Origin: Allocatelliglobosispora scoriae | GTDB taxonomy: Bacteria; Actinomycetota; Actinomycetes; Mycobacteriales; Micromonosporaceae | Direction: 5' to 3' | NCBI RefSeq assembly: GCF_014204945.1 | Contig: NZ_JACHMN010000002.1 | Coordinates: 682,001 to 746,000, forward strand | Length of the DNA stretch: 64,000 nt | Shown: positions 23,281 to 50,754 of the stretch, in pieces | How the letters are laid out: each line of letters begins with the position of its first letter | Position numbering within the stretch: the first letter of the stretch is position 1 | The notes under the pieces: model-generated | Database searches by the model: none | What the model was told of the DNA's origin: nothing | What the model saw: only the letters and a program-made list of their open reading frames with translations | Position numbers and translations under genes: made by a program

Positions 23281-23303
23281 CACCAACTCTTCAAGAGCTG
23301 GTG
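23281..23303. terminator. Bidirectional hairpin between convergent genes
   Basis: CACCAACTCT (23281-23290) and AGAGCTGGTG (23294-23303) pair with one G-U position, around TCA. The SDR stop codon on the minus strand forms the loop. It belongs to a family of three related palindromes in this window (see also 27068-27084 and 47531-47549). Confidence 0.6.
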
Positions 23304-24879: not shown

Positions 24880-26961
24880 ATGGCACGACGGGCGAGAACG
24901 CTGTTGCACGCGCTGGCGGCGCTGACGATCGCGGTCTCGGCGGGCCTGGTGCTGGAGTCGCCGGCCTGGGCGGCGGCGTTCCCGATCGACGAGCCCTTCA
25001 GCGGTGCCACGACCAATAACCCCGACTGGGTCTTCACCGACAAGGCACGCCTCACCGACGAGGGCGACGGCTGGCTGCACCTCACCGGCACCGGCACGTT
25101 CGAGGCGGGCACCGCGGTCCTCAACGACGCCTTCTCCACCGAACTCGGTGTCAACGTGGAGTTCGAGTACGCCACCTGGGGCGGCATCGACCTCGGCGGG
25201 CACCGCGCCGACGGCTTCTCGTTCTTCCTCATGGACGGCACCTTCCCGCCCTCGATCGGGCAGTCCGGCGGCGGCCTCGGCTACACCGGCATCCAGGGCG
25301 GATACGTCGGTGTCGGCTTCGACGAGTTCGGCAACTTCTCCGGCGGCCTCGGCGGACCCGGCCAGCAGCCCGACACGATCGCGATCCGCGGCTCCTACGC
25401 CGCCAGCCCCAACTGGGCGTGGCTGACGAACGCGCCGGGGCCCAACGGCAGCGTCGAGACCGGCGACCGGGCCGGGTTCCGCAAGGTACGCATCACGATC
25501 ACGCCCAACGCACCCGGCCAGACGATGCTGTCGATCTTCTCCGACAGCGGTCCCGGCACGGCCATGGTGCCGGTGATCAGCGACTACAACGTGGCGACCG
25601 CGCCGGGCCAGCCCGTGCTGCCGGACACCTTCAAGCTCGGCTTCAGCGGCTCCACCGGCGGCGGCACCAACAACCACGAGATCCGCAACCTCGTCGTCAC
25701 CGTCCCGACCGACCTCTCCGTCACCAAGACGGGGACCGCCACCGTCGACCCCCGCGGCCAGGTCACCTACACCGTGATCGCGCGCAACGACTACATGAAC
25801 CCGGTCTCCGGCGCCGTCATCACCGACACCGTCCCGGCCGGGCTCACCGACGTCACCTGGACGTGCAGCGGCGGCGCGGGCGCCTCGTGCGGGCAGCCAT
25901 CGGGCACGGGCAACGACATCAGCGTCACCGCGGCGATGGAGTCCAACACCGGGGTCACCCTCACCATCACCGGCACCGCGGCCGACGCGGCGGCGGGCAC
26001 GACCATCACCAACACGGCGGTCGTCACGGCACCGGCCGACCGGACGGACCTCGACCCGACCAACAACACCGCGAGCACGGACACCGCGGTCAACCAGTTC
26101 ATGGACCTCGTCGTCGAGAAGAAGCTGACGAGCGCGTCACCGCTCGTCTTCGGGCAGGACGCGACCTATGACATCACGGTCACCAACAACGGCCCCGCCG
26201 CCGCTTCCGGAGTTGTCCTGACGGACACGATCCCGGCCGCGTTCGACCCGGCGACCGTCACCGCACCCGGCTGCACCGTCTCGGGCACCACACTGACCTG
26301 CGCACTCGGCAACCTGCCAGCGGGTGCCACGCGGGTCGTCCACCTCACCGCGACCGTCGGCGGCGACGCGACCGCCTGTGCGGAGCGCGACGTCACGCAG
26401 AGCGCGTCGGCGTCCGGGACCAACGCCGACCGGACCCCCGACGACGCCAGCGACACCGTCACCACCCCCTGCGAGGTACCGGTGTCGCTCGCCGTGACGA
26501 AGACCGGCGCGGCGTCCGTGACCGCCGGCGGATCTCTCGTCTACACCGTGACGGTGACCAACACCGGCAGCTTCGCGGCACCGGCGACGGCGATCACCGA
26601 CACGGTGCCGGGCTCGCTGATCGATGTGGTCTGGACCTGCCCGGCCTGCACACCCGCGAGCGGGAGCGGCAACGCGATCAGCACGACGGCCGCAGTTCCG
26701 GCGGGCGGCTCGACGGTTCTCACCATCACCGGGACGCCGACGCAGCCCGGGTCCGTGACCAACACCGCCTCGGTGACGCCCTGCGCGCGGTGTGCCGCCC
26801 AAGGGGTCGGGCCGCTCTCCGCCAGCGTCACCACCGAGGTCGGCGGGGAGCCGATCCCGATCACGGGTGTGCCGGTGGGCACCATCGCGCTCAGCGGCGC
26901 GGGACTGCTCATCGCGGGCACCGCCACCGTCCTGATCACCCGCCGCCGCCGCTCCAGCTGA
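24880..26961 (+). CDS. Cell-wall lectin-like protein with DUF11 repeats and a sortase-type C-terminus
   Basis: A 693-residue exported protein. A signal peptide (LLHALAALTIAVSAGLVLESPAWA) is followed by an L-type (legume) lectin-like domain at about 30-265 (NVEFEYATWGG, ADGFSFFLMDG, GGYVGVGFDEFGN, HEIRNLVV). Three DUF11 beta-sandwich repeats follow (starting DLSVTKTG, DLVVEKKL and SLAVTKTG, each with a TDTVP or TDTIP motif). The C-terminus reads IPITG, then a hydrophobic segment and RRRR, an LPxTG-like sorting signal. It is therefore likely to be fixed to peptidoglycan by a sortase and to bind sugars. The ATG at 24880 follows GGGGTGA; a GTG lies directly before it. Confidence 0.85.
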   Translation: MARRARTLLHALAALTIAVSAGLVLESPAWAAAFPIDEPFSGATTNNPDWVFTDKARLTDEGDGWLHLTGTGTFEAGTAVLNDAFSTELGVNVEFEYATWGGIDLGGHRADGFSFFLMDGTFPPSIGQSGGGLGYTGIQGGYVGVGFDEFGNFSGGLGGPGQQPDTIAIRGSYAASPNWAWLTNAPGPNGSVETGDRAGFRKVRITITPNAPGQTMLSIFSDSGPGTAMVPVISDYNVATAPGQPVLPDTFKLGFSGSTGGGTNNHEIRNLVVTVPTDLSVTKTGTATVDPRGQVTYTVIARNDYMNPVSGAVITDTVPAGLTDVTWTCSGGAGASCGQPSGTGNDISVTAAMESNTGVTLTITGTAADAAAGTTITNTAVVTAPADRTDLDPTNNTASTDTAVNQFMDLVVEKKLTSASPLVFGQDATYDITVTNNGPAAASGVVLTDTIPAAFDPATVTAPGCTVSGTTLTCALGNLPAGATRVVHLTATVGGDATACAERDVTQSASASGTNADRTPDDASDTVTTPCEVPVSLAVTKTGAASVTAGGSLVYTVTVTNTGSFAAPATAITDTVPGSLIDVVWTCPACTPASGSGNAISTTAAVPAGGSTVLTITGTPTQPGSVTNTASVTPCARCAAQGVGPLSASVTTEVGGEPIPITGVPVGTIALSGAGLLIAGTATVLITRRRRSS

Positions 26962-27067
26962 TCCTCCGGTCCGATCCGCTACCGCGCCACCCGCCCCGCG
27001 CCGCGCCGCCCGGCCCGCGCCGCCCGCTGGCACCGCAGTGGCGCGGCGCCGCATGCCAAGATCGCCG

Positions 27068-27084
27068 CAACTCTTGAAGAGTTG
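27068..27084. repeat. Short dispersed palindrome, copy 2 of 3
   Basis: CAACTCTT and AAGAGTTG flank a single G. The flank CGCCG before it also precedes the copy at 47531. It lies between a plus-strand gene end and the repeat cluster and could act as a small terminator. Confidence 0.55.
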
Positions 27085-27179
27085 GTCCTAAGGGGCGACG
27101 GGTGTGGCGGGGTTCAGGGCTCGACGACGAGGGAGCTGGGTGCGGCTCGGAGTGGTTGGCCCGCCCCCGCTTCTTCCCT

Positions 27180-27257
27180 GGTGATCACGTCCAATTAGGG
27201 GAAAGCGACGTGATCACCGCCCATGATCACGTCTGGTTCGGGGAAGGTGACGTGACC
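27180..27257. repeat. Two tandem hairpin units with TGATCAC ends
   Basis: Unit 1 (27180-27218) has perfect 12-base arms GGTGATCACGTC and GACGTGATCACC around 15 bases. Unit 2 (27225-27257) has arms GATCACGTC and GACGTGACC with one mismatch. The loops share a GGGGAA core, so the units are diverged tandem copies. REP-like elements have this build. Confidence 0.7.
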
Positions 27258-27280
27258 GCCGAGCGCCGCGCGCTGCGCCT

Positions 27281-27457
27281 TCACTGATCACACCGTTTCC
27301 CGAAAGAAGGTGCGATCAAGGGCCTTGATCGCACCTTCTTTCGGGAAACGGTGTGATCAACCGCCGTCGCGGTCGGACTGTCCAGGATCTCCAACCGCTC
27401 GCGGAAGGCGGCGAGCGCCGGTTCGTCGTGGACGGCCTGGTCGACTGGGGTCCGTCG
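27281..27457 (-). pseudogene. C-terminal gene remnant reading into the 75-bp palindrome
   Basis: One minus-strand frame is open for 58 codons without a start. It reads convincingly as protein at first (VDQAVHDEPALAAFRERLEIL), then enters the palindrome at DHTVSRKK and stops at 27281-27283. It looks like the tail of a lost gene truncated or extended by the palindromic element. The family is not recognisable. Confidence 0.4.
27285..27359. repeat. 75-base perfect palindrome
   Basis: Two perfect 37-base arms (27285-27321 and 27323-27359) surround one G at 27322. The ends are TGATCACACCG, the inner part GCGATCAAGG. No mismatch is present. As RNA or single-stranded DNA it would fold into one long hairpin with almost no loop. 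Confidence 0.9.
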
Positions 27458-27491
27458 TCAGCGACGAACCCGGCCGTACGAGCCGGTCGGC

Positions 27492-27582
27492 CCCTGAACT
27501 TAATGCTGGATCGACGGCGTGTCGGAAACGATCCTGACGGTGGTGACGGATTTCGCGGCGTGTCCAGCATTAAAATTCAGGG
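27492..27582. repeat. MITE-like element with terminal inverted repeats
   Basis: The left end CCCTGAACTTAATGCTGGA (27492-27510) is inverted at the right end (27563-27582) with one substitution and one extra base. The core is 52 bases and has no ORF. Size and build resemble a miniature inverted-repeat element; no target-site duplication is obvious. Confidence 0.6.
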
Positions 27583-27677
27583 CAGGCCGGGCCCGAGGTT
27601 TGCCACGCCCGCCCCGGCGGGCATGCTTCCATCACTGGCCGCGACAGACGCGGGCAGCCGGTGTGCGAGGAGAAGCC

Positions 27678-28010
27678 ATGTCACGCGAGGCCTGGATCGC
27701 GGTCGCCATCGTCGTGGCGATCATCGCAGCCGTCACCATCTTCGGCGCGGTGAAGCTGGCGCGGCGGCTGTGGAAGACGAAAAAGACCCTCAACGAGCTG
27801 GGCGCGGGCGGCAACTGGGTGTTCTGGGGAGCGATGGCCTACACGATCTTCCCGATCGACATCCTGCCGGACCCGATCTACCTGGACGACATGGGGGTTC
27901 TCGGCGCCGCGCTCATCTACCTCACCCGCCTGGTCCAGAAGAAACGCGCGGCCGGCGCGTTTCCGCACGCCCGCACCGAGACGCGCCAGGTCGAGCAGCG
28001 CCGACGCTGA
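27678..28010 (+). CDS. DUF1232 (YkvA-like) membrane protein
   Basis: A 110-residue protein with an N-terminal membrane segment (AWIAVAIVVAIIAAVTIFGAV) and the DUF1232 core TIFPIDILPDPIYLDDMGVLGAALIYLTRLV. The family signature is (D/P)xIPDxxPxxGxxDD followed by a helix. Function is unknown; members are often linked to membrane or cell-envelope stress. GAGGAG at about 27667-27672 is a good ribosome binding site for the ATG at 27678. Confidence 0.82.
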   Translation: MSREAWIAVAIVVAIIAAVTIFGAVKLARRLWKTKKTLNELGAGGNWVFWGAMAYTIFPIDILPDPIYLDDMGVLGAALIYLTRLVQKKRAAGAFPHARTETRQVEQRRR

Positions 28011-43434: not shown

Positions 43435-43559
43435 GTCACGTTTTGCAGCAAGCGCTGGCACGAGGAGTGAAGGAGCGCAGCGACTGAGCCCCGCAGGACG
43501 TGCCAGAAACGCCGTGGCCTCGCTTCGCGATTTGGCCACGCTTTGCTGCAAAACGTGAC
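43435..43559. repeat. Branched inverted-repeat element between the GH92 genes
   Basis: Perfect 17-base terminal arms (GTCACGTTTTGCAGCAA at 43435-43451, inverted at 43543-43559) enclose two internal hairpins: CTGGCAC/GTGCCAG (43455-43461 with 43500-43506) and CGTGGCC/GGCCACG (43513-43519 with 43534-43540). Folded, it gives a three-way junction of 125 bases. There is no ORF. It could be a mobile miniature element or a structured RNA. Confidence 0.75.
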
Positions 43560-43567
43560 GGCAGACG

Positions 43568-43618: not shown

Positions 43619-46444
43619 TCAGGCGTACACCTCGACCTCGTAGATCCGAGCGGCACCACCGGTGCCCTGCTCGGCGGTGATCACGTTGAGCCGCACGTAG
43701 CGCGTGCTCGCCGTGAGCGTGTGCGTCGTGACGCTCGCGGTGTTGCCGCGGGCCTGGACCACCGTGGTCCAGTTCGTCCCGTCGGTGGAGACCTGCAGGT
43801 CGAAGTCGCGGGTGTTCCAGCTCGTCGACTCACCGCCCGCACCGGCGTGCCGGACGGTGACCGTCTTGATCGCCGTCGTGGCGCCGAGGTCGACCCGCCA
43901 CCACTTGCTCGCGCCGGTGGAGCACCACTTGTCGCTGGTGCCGCCGTTGACCGTGCCGTTGACCGCCTTCGCCGACGACTCGTTGGTGTTGCAGTTGGAG
44001 TCCGAGGTCGTCGGCTTGTTGAGCGCGAGGTTCGTGGCGGCGGGCGCGCCGTTGAACGACGGCGGCGCGTCGGCTGCCGCCGAGCCCCAGCCGGTGTTCG
44101 CCGTCGTGCCGAGCGTGAAGTCGACGGTGCCGCCGCCGGTGACGAAGGACTCCGGCAGCCAGGCCTTGGTGCTGGTGGCGCCGTTGACCTTCAGGCTCTG
44201 CACATAGGGCGAGTTCGTCGCCGCGCCGACGCCGTTGATGGTGAGGTTCTGGCCGCTGGACCGGTGGACCACCGCCGAGGTGAACAGCGGGCTGCCCAGC
44301 AGCAGCTCGGCCCGGCCCGGGGTGAGCGGGTAGACACCGAGCGCCGCCCAGACGTACCAGGCCGACATGGCGCCCAGGTCGTCCTGGCCGGGGATGCCGC
44401 CGGTCCCCGAGTTCCACAGCGTGTTGACGACCTGCCGGACCGTCTGCTGCGTCTTGTACGGCTGCCCGGCGAAGTTGTAGAGCCACGGCACGCCGATCGA
44501 CGGTTCGTTGGCGAGGTCGGACTTCGTGCCGCCCCCGCCGGACAGGGACCAGGAGCCGTCGGAGTTGTGGAAGAACGAGTCCAACCGGCTCACCGCCGAC
44601 GCGTTGCCGCCCATCGCGTCGAAGAGCCCGCGCGCGTTGAACGGGATCATCCACGTGTACTGCGCGGAGCTGCCCTCGGCGAAGCCGCTGTCGCCGGCCG
44701 GGTCACCGGCGGGCCAGGAGCCGTCGGAGTTGCGGTCCTGGATGTAGAGGCGGGTCGGGTGGAAAACGTTGCGCCAATTCTGCGCCCGCTGCAGGAACGT
44801 GCTCGCCGCACCGGTGTTGCCCAGGCGCTGCGCGAGCTGCGACAGGGCGAAGTCGGCCGACACGTCCTCCAGGGTCTCCCCCGCACCGCCCCAGGCGTTG
44901 CCGTTGGTCGGCACATACCCCTTCGACAGGTACTGATCGAGAGAGGGGCGTTCGCCGACGACCATCACGTTCCAGCCGTTGCGGCTCAGGTCGTCGGCGG
45001 TGACCGTCGTCGCGGCATTGAGCATCGAGGTCAGCGCCGCCGAGGAGTTGAAAGCGGTGCCGCCGAATGCGTAGATGCTCGGCAGCGCGGCGTGGGCCGG
45101 GTCGCCGGTCATCACGTGGGTGCCGCCCTGGTTGTGTGTCCAGCGGTCCCAGACGCCGTTGTTCTGGTTGGCCTGGTTGAGCAGCGACTGCGCGATGTCC
45201 GACCCGATGTCCGGACGCAGCAGCGTGACGAGCTGCAGCTGGCTGCGGTAGACGTCCCAGCCGGAGAAGTTGGCGTACTGCGCGGACTGGCCCGACGAGA
45301 CCTGGTGCACCGCCTGGTCCATGCCCGTGTACTGCCCGTTGACGTCGCTGAAGACGTTGGGGTGCAGCAGCGAGTGGTAGAGCGCGGTGTAGAAGGTGGT
45401 GTTCTGCGCCGCGGTGCCGCCGCTGATCTCGATCCGGTTCAGCGCCGCGTTCCAGGCGTCCTTGGCCCGGGTACGCATCGTGTCGAAGCTCGTTCCCGCC
45501 GGGTTCTCGGAGGTCAGGTTGGCCTGGGCGTTGGCCGCGCTGACATAGGAGATGCCGACCCGGGCGGTGACGGTCGTGCCGCCGCTGGTGTCGAAGGTGA
45601 CGTACCCGCCCGACCCCTGGCCGCGGACCGGCCAGCCGTCGGTGCCGTAGGTCGTGCCGCCGCTCGACGAGGTGCTGCCGCCGGTGACCGTACCGTTCTT
45701 CCAGGTGCCGGTGCTCGTGAACGCCTTGTCGAAGACCGCGTGGAAGTAGAGCGTGTAGTAGCTGCGGCGGCCGATCTGGTTGATGTAGCCGCAGAAGTTG
45801 CCGCTCGTCACCGAGCCGCTGATGGTGCGGTTGGCCGCGTCGATCGTGGTCGTCGCCGCGCTGCTGCCGACCTCCGAGTTGGAGGTGCGCACCAGCATCG
45901 TCGCCGCCTGGCCGGTCGGGTAGGTGAACCGGCCCGAGCCCGTCCGGGTCGAGGCGGTGAGCTCGACGTTGACCCCGGAGGCGAGGCCGACGCGGTAGTA
46001 GCCCGCCGTTGCGGTCTCGTTGGCGTGGGAGAAGTTGCTGGCGTAGGTCGCGTCCGTCGTGTCCGAGGTCGGCGAGGAGGTGACGGTGCCGGGGATCGGC
46101 AGGAAGGGCACGTCGCCGGAGGCGCCGGCGCAGCCCGTACCCGACAGGTGGGTGAGGCTGAAGCCTCTGATCCTGGCCGCGTCATAGGCGTAACCACCCG
46201 GCTCGGGCGTGCGGGCCTGGTCCCCGCGGGTGTTCTCCGGGCTCCACGCGACCATGCCGAAGGGGGCGACGGCACCCGGGAAGGTCTCGCCGCTGTTGCT
46301 GGAGCCGATCAGGGTGTTGACGGTCGAGGCGGGGTCCGGCACGGCCGCGGCGGCCGGGTCGGCCGCGACGAGCCCGGTCGTGAGGACGAGCAGGAGGCCG
46401 AGGGCGGCGGGCAGGCCGCGGGCCGATGGTCGGGACATGGGCAT
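43619..46444 (-). CDS. GH92 alpha-mannosidase with one F5/8 C (CBM32-like) module
   Basis: A 941-residue exported enzyme, paralogous to its neighbour. Signal peptide (LPAALGLLLVLTTGLVAADPAAA); GH92 region at about 35-790 with VNTLIGSSNSGETFPGAVAPFGMVAWSPEN, LTHLSGTGCAG, FYTALYHSLLHPNVF, FSGWDVYRSQLQL and GQDDLGAMSAWYVWAALGVYPLTPG; then one C-terminal discoidin-like module (NLALNKPTTSDS to YEVEVYA). The pair probably acts on different linkages of the same mannan. It is divergent from a helix-turn-helix regulator. ATG 46444 is used; ATG 46438 is also possible. Confidence 0.93.
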   Translation of the reverse strand: MPMSRPSARGLPAALGLLLVLTTGLVAADPAAAAVPDPASTVNTLIGSSNSGETFPGAVAPFGMVAWSPENTRGDQARTPEPGGYAYDAARIRGFSLTHLSGTGCAGASGDVPFLPIPGTVTSSPTSDTTDATYASNFSHANETATAGYYRVGLASGVNVELTASTRTGSGRFTYPTGQAATMLVRTSNSEVGSSAATTTIDAANRTISGSVTSGNFCGYINQIGRRSYYTLYFHAVFDKAFTSTGTWKNGTVTGGSTSSSGGTTYGTDGWPVRGQGSGGYVTFDTSGGTTVTARVGISYVSAANAQANLTSENPAGTSFDTMRTRAKDAWNAALNRIEISGGTAAQNTTFYTALYHSLLHPNVFSDVNGQYTGMDQAVHQVSSGQSAQYANFSGWDVYRSQLQLVTLLRPDIGSDIAQSLLNQANQNNGVWDRWTHNQGGTHVMTGDPAHAALPSIYAFGGTAFNSSAALTSMLNAATTVTADDLSRNGWNVMVVGERPSLDQYLSKGYVPTNGNAWGGAGETLEDVSADFALSQLAQRLGNTGAASTFLQRAQNWRNVFHPTRLYIQDRNSDGSWPAGDPAGDSGFAEGSSAQYTWMIPFNARGLFDAMGGNASAVSRLDSFFHNSDGSWSLSGGGGTKSDLANEPSIGVPWLYNFAGQPYKTQQTVRQVVNTLWNSGTGGIPGQDDLGAMSAWYVWAALGVYPLTPGRAELLLGSPLFTSAVVHRSSGQNLTINGVGAATNSPYVQSLKVNGATSTKAWLPESFVTGGGTVDFTLGTTANTGWGSAAADAPPSFNGAPAATNLALNKPTTSDSNCNTNESSAKAVNGTVNGGTSDKWCSTGASKWWRVDLGATTAIKTVTVRHAGAGGESTSWNTRDFDLQVSTDGTNWTTVVQARGNTASVTTHTLTASTRYVRLNVITAEQGTGGAARIYEVEVYA

Positions 46445-49865: not shown

Positions 49866-49978
49866 GGCCGATCCCTTCAAGGGATAGAGGATGCAACTGG
49901 AGAGTGGCGACTCCCTGGCCCCGAAACGTCGCGACGGACGGGATGCGGCTGGCCTGGCCTTCAGGGGGACGCCGTTCC

Positions 49979-50044
49979 TTAATGTCAGCTTGACATTAAT
50001 AAGCTAAGCCCCCACGCACTTTAATGTCAAGCTGACATTAAAGT
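49979..50044. promoter_or_regulatory. Paired NrtR-type operators
   Basis: Two perfect palindromes carry identical 9-base arms TTAATGTCA and TGACATTAA: site 1 at 49979-49999 with centre GCT, site 2 at 50021-50041 with centre AGC. Site 2 extends to 12-base arms (50018-50044). Their centres are 42 bases apart, four helical turns. TATGCT (50044-50049) just before the GTG start could be a -10 box of a near-leaderless transcript. Confidence 0.8.
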
Positions 50045-50055
50045 ATGCTGGCACC

Positions 50056-50754
50056 GTGACCGACCGAGAGCATCTCTACCTGCGACTGACCGTCGATCTC
50101 GTGATCCTGACGGTGCGCGCGAACGACCTGCACGTCCTGCTGATCGAGCGCGACAACGAGCCGTTCCGCTTCCGCCCCGCACTACCAGGCGGGTTCCTGC
50201 GCGGCGGCGAGGACCTGCGCCAGGCCGCCGAACGCGAACTCGCCGAGGAGACCGGTCTACAGGGGACATCGCTGCATCTGGAGCAGCTGGCCGTCTACGA
50301 CTCGCCGGACCGTGACCCGCGCGGACCGATCTTCAGCGTCGCCTACCTGGCCCTCGCACCCGACCTGCCCATCCCCACGGCGGGGTCGGACGCCCGCCAG
50401 GCGCAGTGGGCGCGGGTCGACGACGTCGCTGGAGAGCTCGCCTTCGACCATGACCGGATCCTCGCCGACGCGGTGGAGCGCGCCCGGACCCGGCTGGAGT
50501 TCACGACGCTGGCGACGGCCTTCTGCGGACCCTGCTTCACCATCGGCGACCTGCGCAACGTCTACGAGGTGGTCTGGGGCACGGAGTTGGACCCCCGCAA
50601 TTTCAGCCGGAAGGTCCTCAGCACCGAGGGCTTCATCGAGCCGACGGGCGGCAAGCGGGTGCAGGAGGTCGGGCGGCCGGCGGCGCTCTACCACCGCGGG
50701 CCCGCGCTCACCCTGCACCCGCCGATCCTGCGCACGACCGCCGGCACGGAGTAG
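50056..50754 (+). CDS. NrtR-family Nudix transcriptional regulator
   Basis: A 232-residue protein. An N-terminal Nudix domain (VDLVILTVRANDLHVLLIERD, then the box GGFLRGGEDLRQAAERELAEETGL) is joined to a C-terminal winged helix (FTIGDLRNVYEVVWGTELDPRNFSRKVL, EPTGGKRVQEVGRPAALY). This is the NrtR architecture, a repressor of NAD metabolism that is released by ADP-ribose or related ligands. Unlike many NrtR proteins, the Nudix box REx2EE is intact, so hydrolase activity may remain. Two palindromic operators precede the GTG start, indicating autoregulation. No NAD-pathway gene is adjacent. Confidence 0.88.
   Translation: MTDREHLYLRLTVDLVILTVRANDLHVLLIERDNEPFRFRPALPGGFLRGGEDLRQAAERELAEETGLQGTSLHLEQLAVYDSPDRDPRGPIFSVAYLALAPDLPIPTAGSDARQAQWARVDDVAGELAFDHDRILADAVERARTRLEFTTLATAFCGPCFTIGDLRNVYEVVWGTELDPRNFSRKVLSTEGFIEPTGGKRVQEVGRPAALYHRGPALTLHPPILRTTAGTE

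Follow-up and report, generated by a model that had tools for sequence, protein, structure and literature searches.

A family of doublet palindromes linked to genes of AbiEi-DUF559 nucleases in an actinobacterial family

The palindrome at 27285-27359 is one copy of a dispersed repeat family in which two short units are joined into one long hairpin, and several types of this family flank genes of a protein with an AbiEi-like N-terminus and a DUF559/Vsr-like C-terminus. These palindromes are probably REPIN-like, non-autonomous repeats that are serviced by a nuclease other than RAYT. To our knowledge, REPINs with their RAYT transposases are the sole short bacterial palindromic repeats whose spread and persistence have been linked to a dedicated enzyme. 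A link between palindromes and a DUF559, Vsr or AbiEi nuclease was not found reported in the open-access library searched. The window analysed here is the 64-kb stretch G000:C2:682001-746000 of a 9.15-Mb genome (G000).

Structure of the palindrome and its surroundings

The sequence-only reading had described a 75-base perfect palindrome with a one-base centre. The 37-nt arms (27285-27321 and 27323-27359) are indeed 100% complementary around a single G, a 37+1+37 arrangement with 0 mismatches, but this wording conceals two 32-nt units in opposite orientation, each with GATC at its start and end, separated by the 9-nt spacer AAGGGCCTT. The palindrome is real as a unit; its build as a fixed doublet, usually 33+9+33 and here 32+9+32, had been overlooked. 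The one-base deletion in the window copy is mirrored in both arms. The TGATCA end motif does recur upstream, at 27182, 27211 and 27224, and these copies form a second module, of type A, which had also been overlooked. The features of this region are the following.

27285..27359, no strand assigned: B-type palindromic module (R1 model match of 81 bits at 27284-27360) with a unit at 27286-27317, a spacer at 27318-27326, an inverted unit at 27327-27358 and T/A flanks
27183..27257, no strand assigned: A-type module (R1 model match of 60 bits at 27181-27259) with a unit at 27183-27215, a 9-nt spacer and a unit at 27225-27257 in direct orientation
27060..27091, plus strand: GATCGCCGCAACTCTTGAAGAGTTGGTCCTAA, one E-type unit that lacks an inverted partner (half module)
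24904..26961, plus strand: upstream gene with repeat domains (own ORF caller and ORF list)
27678..28010, plus strand: downstream gene for a small protein (own ORF caller and ORF list)

The 33-nt units of the A module start exactly 42 nt apart, and the module lies about 28 nt upstream of the palindrome. The upstream gene stops 222 nt short of the A module and the downstream gene begins 319 nt past the palindrome. Directly downstream of the palindrome, at 27483-27590, an inverted repeat of CCTGAACTTAATGCTGGA and TCCAGCATTAAAATTCAGGG encloses a 52-nt loop. Elsewhere in the window a D-type palindrome remnant was found at 43515-43560 (GTGGCC..GGCCACGCTTTGCTGCAAAACGTGACGG; type D flanks the L264 nuclease gene described below), together with a lone E-type core, CAACTCTTCAAGAGCTGG, at 23284-23300 close to the ends of two genes and an inverted repeat of TTAATGTCAGCTTGACATTAA at 49961-50059 (24/30 paired), which may represent another palindrome family.

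In a strict scan of the 64 kb, the palindrome was by far the top hairpin (30/30), and the sole other one at threshold reached 24/30. Its fold energy is -67.9 kcal/mol. The window contains 27 copies of the heptamer GTGATCA, where 5.4 would be expected. Chance cannot account for 37 perfect pairs within 64 kb. A fold-back artefact of the assembly is a very unlikely source, because about 75 other sites have the same architecture with different sequences and unique flanks, 10 aligned inverted modules have perfect 33-nt arms of differing sequence, and species from related genera have copies of their own.

The repeat family in the genome and in relatives

Type A modules read GATCACGTC..TTCGGGGAA..GACGTGATC and type B modules GATCACACC..TTCCCCGAA..GGTGTGATC. 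Units of both types are 33 nt long and share the core TTC-N-GGGAA; almost every recovered pair is spaced at 42 nt. Type C is built as 32+9+32 with a TTTCCCGGAAA core, and types D and E (CAACTCTTGAAGAGTTG) are likewise repeated. A covariance model was constructed on 53 modules and matched 150 of the 150 scored G000 candidates with E values of at most 4e-9. They correspond to about 76 distinct A/B modules, which is a lower bound. The sequence-only reading had advised a search for further copies, which proved positive with at least 76 A/B modules in this genome. A 464-kb sample, consisting of the window and 20 evenly chosen 20-kb pieces, held 6 A/B modules, about 10 C modules and 31 units of the abundant E type; extrapolated to the genome, this gives about 120 A/B and about 200 C copies. 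Like REPINs, the G000 modules consist of two inverted units, form a hairpin and keep a conserved length. In about one third of the modules the two cores are in direct orientation, and at L217 three units stand in tandem at one site. At L226 (13124-13736), four C-type modules lie within 600 bp, some of them on a tandem repeat of 173 bp (98% identity). Contig C1 carries about 3 A/B modules on 1.35 Mb, which is below the prediction from the other contigs.

A search of Rfam returned no family at gathering score, the sole match being a tRNA in L027; weak matches to miRNA families were dismissed as generic hairpins. An exact scan of genome contigs for the A stem gave 35 isolated matches, none with the TTC-N-GGGAA core, so type A in its exact form is not widespread. 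The covariance model matched 16 of 121 genomes of the family; they belong to 7 of 44 genera, among them that of the window. G072 and G001 contain many 33+9+33 modules whose stems differ in sequence, and the proposed check in relatives was therefore positive for palindromes of the same geometry but different sequence. When the window element was used as a blastn query, one weak match was obtained in relatives; the diverged relatives were reached by the covariance model only.

Conservation of the long hairpin

When the modules were scored for the long-hairpin structure, 86% of the cells paired, two-sided changes were observed in 23 of 35 pairs and the covariation score was 0.319, compared with 0.147 for shuffled alignments. 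Doubly changed pairs in the unit hairpins were no more numerous than in shuffles. Since pooling of types A and B can inflate covariation counts, the variable positions of each type were examined separately as well. The inner arms across the two units paired above the shuffled level (0.76 vs 0.57 for A and 0.90 vs 0.57 for inverted B), and within-unit pairing at the variable positions of each type was not above shuffles. Because the covariation sits in the long hairpin, a hairpin at the level of the unit was rejected as the conserved structure. These results support maintenance of the long hairpin rather than of the single unit.

The arms of inverted B modules are 94% identical within a module and 83% between modules, and 46 deviations from the consensus are common to both arms, with 31 confined to one. 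Both observations support the earlier suggestion of a recent origin or active maintenance. With 18 G.T pairs and 25 A.C pairs there was no G.T excess, and the asymmetry that would mark selection on an RNA was not seen.

Genomic position, in-frame inserts and polymorphic sites

Genes were called with our own codon-based ORF caller, so the gene ends given here are approximate. Spaces between convergent genes hold 35 of the 56 intergenic sites, compared with 33% of the sampled intergenic bases (p=5e-6), and spaces between divergent genes hold 2/56. The modules of G072 and G001 are likewise mostly convergent. Two of 58 sites are intragenic. In fbiC an A and a B module are inserted in frame in a linker, and in ureF one A module is inserted in the same manner. 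The lengths concerned (33, 42 and 75 nt) are all divisible by three. At the fbiC and ureF linkers, 29 and 12 relatives, respectively, have a shorter, unrelated sequence. The inserts are missing there, which answers the earlier call for empty sites.

When three sister species were compared over 120 kb, four palindromes were found in G015 only, and one intergenic region carried different palindrome types in different sister species. At the polymorphic sites we observed neither a clean target-site duplication nor a sharp insertion boundary; the boundaries were fuzzy and extra flanking sequence accompanied the insertions. A further palindrome type of genus g16, ATTGACGCTGGCCTATC(T/C)AGA, occurs in G015 (L320-L325 joined) at 45431, 55180, 71405 and 95675.

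Nuclease genes flanked by palindromes

The gene of one protein family sits between two modules at L209 and also beside the only module of G118. This link between palindrome types and a nuclease gene had been overlooked in the sequence-only reading. The N-terminus of the protein matches the PADLOC AbiEi profile and the C-terminus matches DUF559 and MTES_1575, both in 9 of 9 members. Vsr and PDB 3r3p (E=0.034 for the latter) are distant matches of the C-terminal domain; the 3r3p entry is annotated as a mobile intron protein, and we take it to be I-Bth0305I. Conserved E and D residues in the motifs SPxE, DLAW and EYDG form the putative catalytic site. G000 encodes seven homologues. The nuclease gene L262 (G000:C2:4210145) has B modules on both sides, L263 (C2:2944885), 54% identical to the first homologue, is flanked by C modules, and L264 (C2:2774907) has type D on both sides. 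Types A and E yielded no cognate nuclease in G000. A palindrome resembling type E adjoins the nuclease gene in L291.

The linkage was then scored at 37 homologue loci from 16 genomes. At the strict threshold, a palindrome was present at 20/37 nuclease loci and at 1/45 control loci. At the lax threshold, palindromes on both sides were found at 12 nuclease loci, compared with 0/45 controls and 0/400 random anchors. Three of the twelve (L275, L276 and L278) were discounted because one hairpin was tRNA-arm-like or a coding GC-rich palindrome, which left nine, and L263 adds one two-sided locus by the R1 model. The single hairpin at L285 was of the tRNA kind, too. A flanking palindrome was absent at 11/37 homologues at the lax threshold, one of which is L263 with its C modules recognised by the R1 model. 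The 37 loci are not independent, as many share neighbours and collapse into syntenic groups; the two-sided loci represent about 8 such groups. Syntenic nuclease loci often carry unrelated palindromes (L262, L274, L284), and in the pair L286/L291 the flanking proteins are 97-98% identical, the nucleases 57% identical and the palindromes different. The palindrome often lies about 270-330 nt upstream of the nuclease core match and at many loci is also found past the stop codon. A type-specific palindrome adjoining a dedicated enzyme gene, as known for REPINs and RAYTs, is found here with a different enzyme. At one conserved locus in g16, the homologues L276, L277, L278, L285 and L288 have lost the EYDG motif; the neighbours and some palindromes are kept.

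Gain, loss and copy number in genus g16

At the nnrD-tsaE locus of g16 (the names are our reading of the proteins), the nuclease is present in 8 of 11 species, and palindromes of the GCAGTTTCGGGGAAA type were found there in 7 of the 8 nuclease-bearing species by the scan used. In two species a gap of 80-97 bp contains neither nuclease nor palindromes, gene and palindromes being absent together, and one species has a 775-bp gap without the nuclease. Genomes with the nnrD-tsaE nuclease contain 36-351 copies of the 19-mer core, and those without it 10, 17 and 76. The copy number is higher with the nuclease (one-sided p=0.024, n=8 vs 3, phylogeny not corrected).

Proposed mechanism and alternative explanations

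We propose that the palindrome is a REPIN-like, non-autonomous element, a doublet of short units that folds into a single long hairpin with a stem of about 33 bp and a loop of 9 nt. Such hairpins are dispersed in hundreds of copies, chiefly to the intergenic stretches where genes end. Palindrome types are tied to single-copy genes that encode an AbiEi-like DNA-binding domain fused to a DUF559/Vsr-like endonuclease, with palindromes of the matching type beside each such gene. By analogy to RAYT and REPIN, the nuclease may recognise the hairpin and cut DNA, whereby palindromes would be copied to new sites in trans; the linkage and the binding of inverted repeats by AbiEi proteins suggest such recognition and copying, and hence a mobilisation of the palindromes by the nuclease. 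The match between the arms would be preserved by repeated copying or by correction templated on the hairpin. Several observations count against this reading: the polymorphic sites lack a clean target-site duplication and a sharp boundary, 11 of the 37 homologues have no flanking palindrome at the lax threshold, genomes that lack the nnrD-tsaE nuclease nevertheless contain 10-76 copies of the 19-mer core, types A and E lack a cognate nuclease in G000, the loci are not independent, and the copy-number comparison has three genomes on one side.

Four other explanations were weighed. The palindromes might be operators for the AbiEi domain: the nuclease or a related regulator would bind them, thereby regulating the nuclease gene and possibly many further genes, and another route, not the nuclease, would have spread them. 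AbiEi proteins bind to inverted repeats in the promoters of their own genes (PMC7319586), the palindrome often lies about 270-330 nt upstream of the nuclease core match, and both the core and the 42-nt phase, which equals four turns of the helix, suit double-stranded binding sites. However, palindromes also follow the stop codon at many nuclease loci, the dispersed copies lie at gene ends and avoid the divergent promoter regions, and the arm covariation covers the whole hairpin, which makes this explanation unlikely. Somewhat less likely still, the palindromes would be bidirectional intrinsic terminators or stabilisers of mRNA 3' ends without a U-tract, selected as RNA hairpins, and the nuclease link would be incidental or result from the position at gene ends. 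In-frame copies inside fbiC and ureF, gene-specific palindromes on both sides of nuclease genes, G.T pairs (18) that do not exceed A.C pairs (25) and sites that are polymorphic among sister species in otherwise conserved flanks all speak against it, although the strong convergent bias, the very stable fold of -67.9 kcal/mol and the compensatory changes would be expected of such elements. Termination may be a side effect of the palindromes.

We consider it very improbable that these palindromes are REPINs of the classical kind, with a RAYT (Y1/HUH) transposase as their mover. The anatomy is close, with extragenic inverted doublets of fixed length, hairpins and compensatory changes (PMC3116915; PMC8049555), but Y1_Tnp (PF01797) was absent from G000 when it was detected in 5 of 14 control genomes, and the GTAG tag is lacking. 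We give hardly any weight to the idea that template switching during replication turned imperfect palindromes into perfect ones, with the copies being passive. It would fit the shared deviations, the one-base deletion mirrored in the arms of the window copy and the 173-bp tandem duplication in L226; it accounts for the identity of the arms but not for dispersal, the geometry common to several genera or the nuclease linkage.

We therefore favour REPIN-like repeats serviced by a non-RAYT nuclease. Whether they amount to a new prokaryotic class of palindrome dispersal is, in our judgement, evenly balanced. In such a class, an AbiEi-Vsr/DUF559 nuclease, vertically kept at fixed loci, would copy its own flanking 73-75-bp palindromes in trans across the genome. 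It would parallel REPIN/RAYT but use an unrelated enzyme, and would be widespread in this actinobacterial family, with several nuclease-palindrome pairs in one genome. If this is true, a second, unrelated enzyme family with cognate hairpins would be an independent case of the REPIN lifestyle, some DUF559 proteins of unknown function would gain a role, and a candidate type of partner would be at hand for orphan repeats, among them the CGTC-REPs and the Rickettsia palindromic elements (RPEs). Direct tests are possible because each nuclease adjoins its presumptive substrate.

Comparison with known systems

REPINs are inverted REP doublets that form a hairpin, with fixed spacing, compensatory changes and hundreds of extragenic copies; type-specific copies adjoin the single-copy, mostly vertically inherited RAYT gene, and REPINs are more numerous in genomes with the RAYT (PMC8049555; PMC3116915). 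The palindromes described here resemble them in these structural traits, including hundreds of extragenic copies, and in having type-specific copies beside a single-copy, mostly vertically inherited enzyme gene and more copies where the enzyme is present. They differ in their TTC...GAA-like core and GATC ends (types A, B and C), where the units begin and end in GATC and have no GTAG tag at the unit end, and in the linked enzyme, an AbiEi-DUF559/Vsr-like nuclease; the search of G000 for Y1_Tnp gave 0 matches.

CGTC-tagged REPs and RPEs are palindromic repeats without a dedicated transposase, some of which lie in frame in protein genes (PMC3733652). In-frame insertion in fbiC and ureF is a likeness to RPEs, confined to 2/58 sites. 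As described, both differ from the present repeats in length and sequence, and a nuclease gene is linked here. The CGTC motif occurs in type A only, inside the stem on both sides, in contrast to the CGTC-REPs.

With homing endonucleases of the Vsr type (EDxHD), such as I-Bth0305I, the nuclease shares the distant C-terminal match to PDB 3r3p, but here there is no intron, the gene is flanked by palindromes and the N-terminus is AbiEi-like. AbiEi relatives of the nuclease bind inverted repeats (PMC7319586). The nuclease resembles the AbiEi antitoxins of type IV toxin-antitoxin systems by the AbiEi profile in the N-terminal region of 9 of 9 members, and differs from them in that this region is fused to a nuclease domain.
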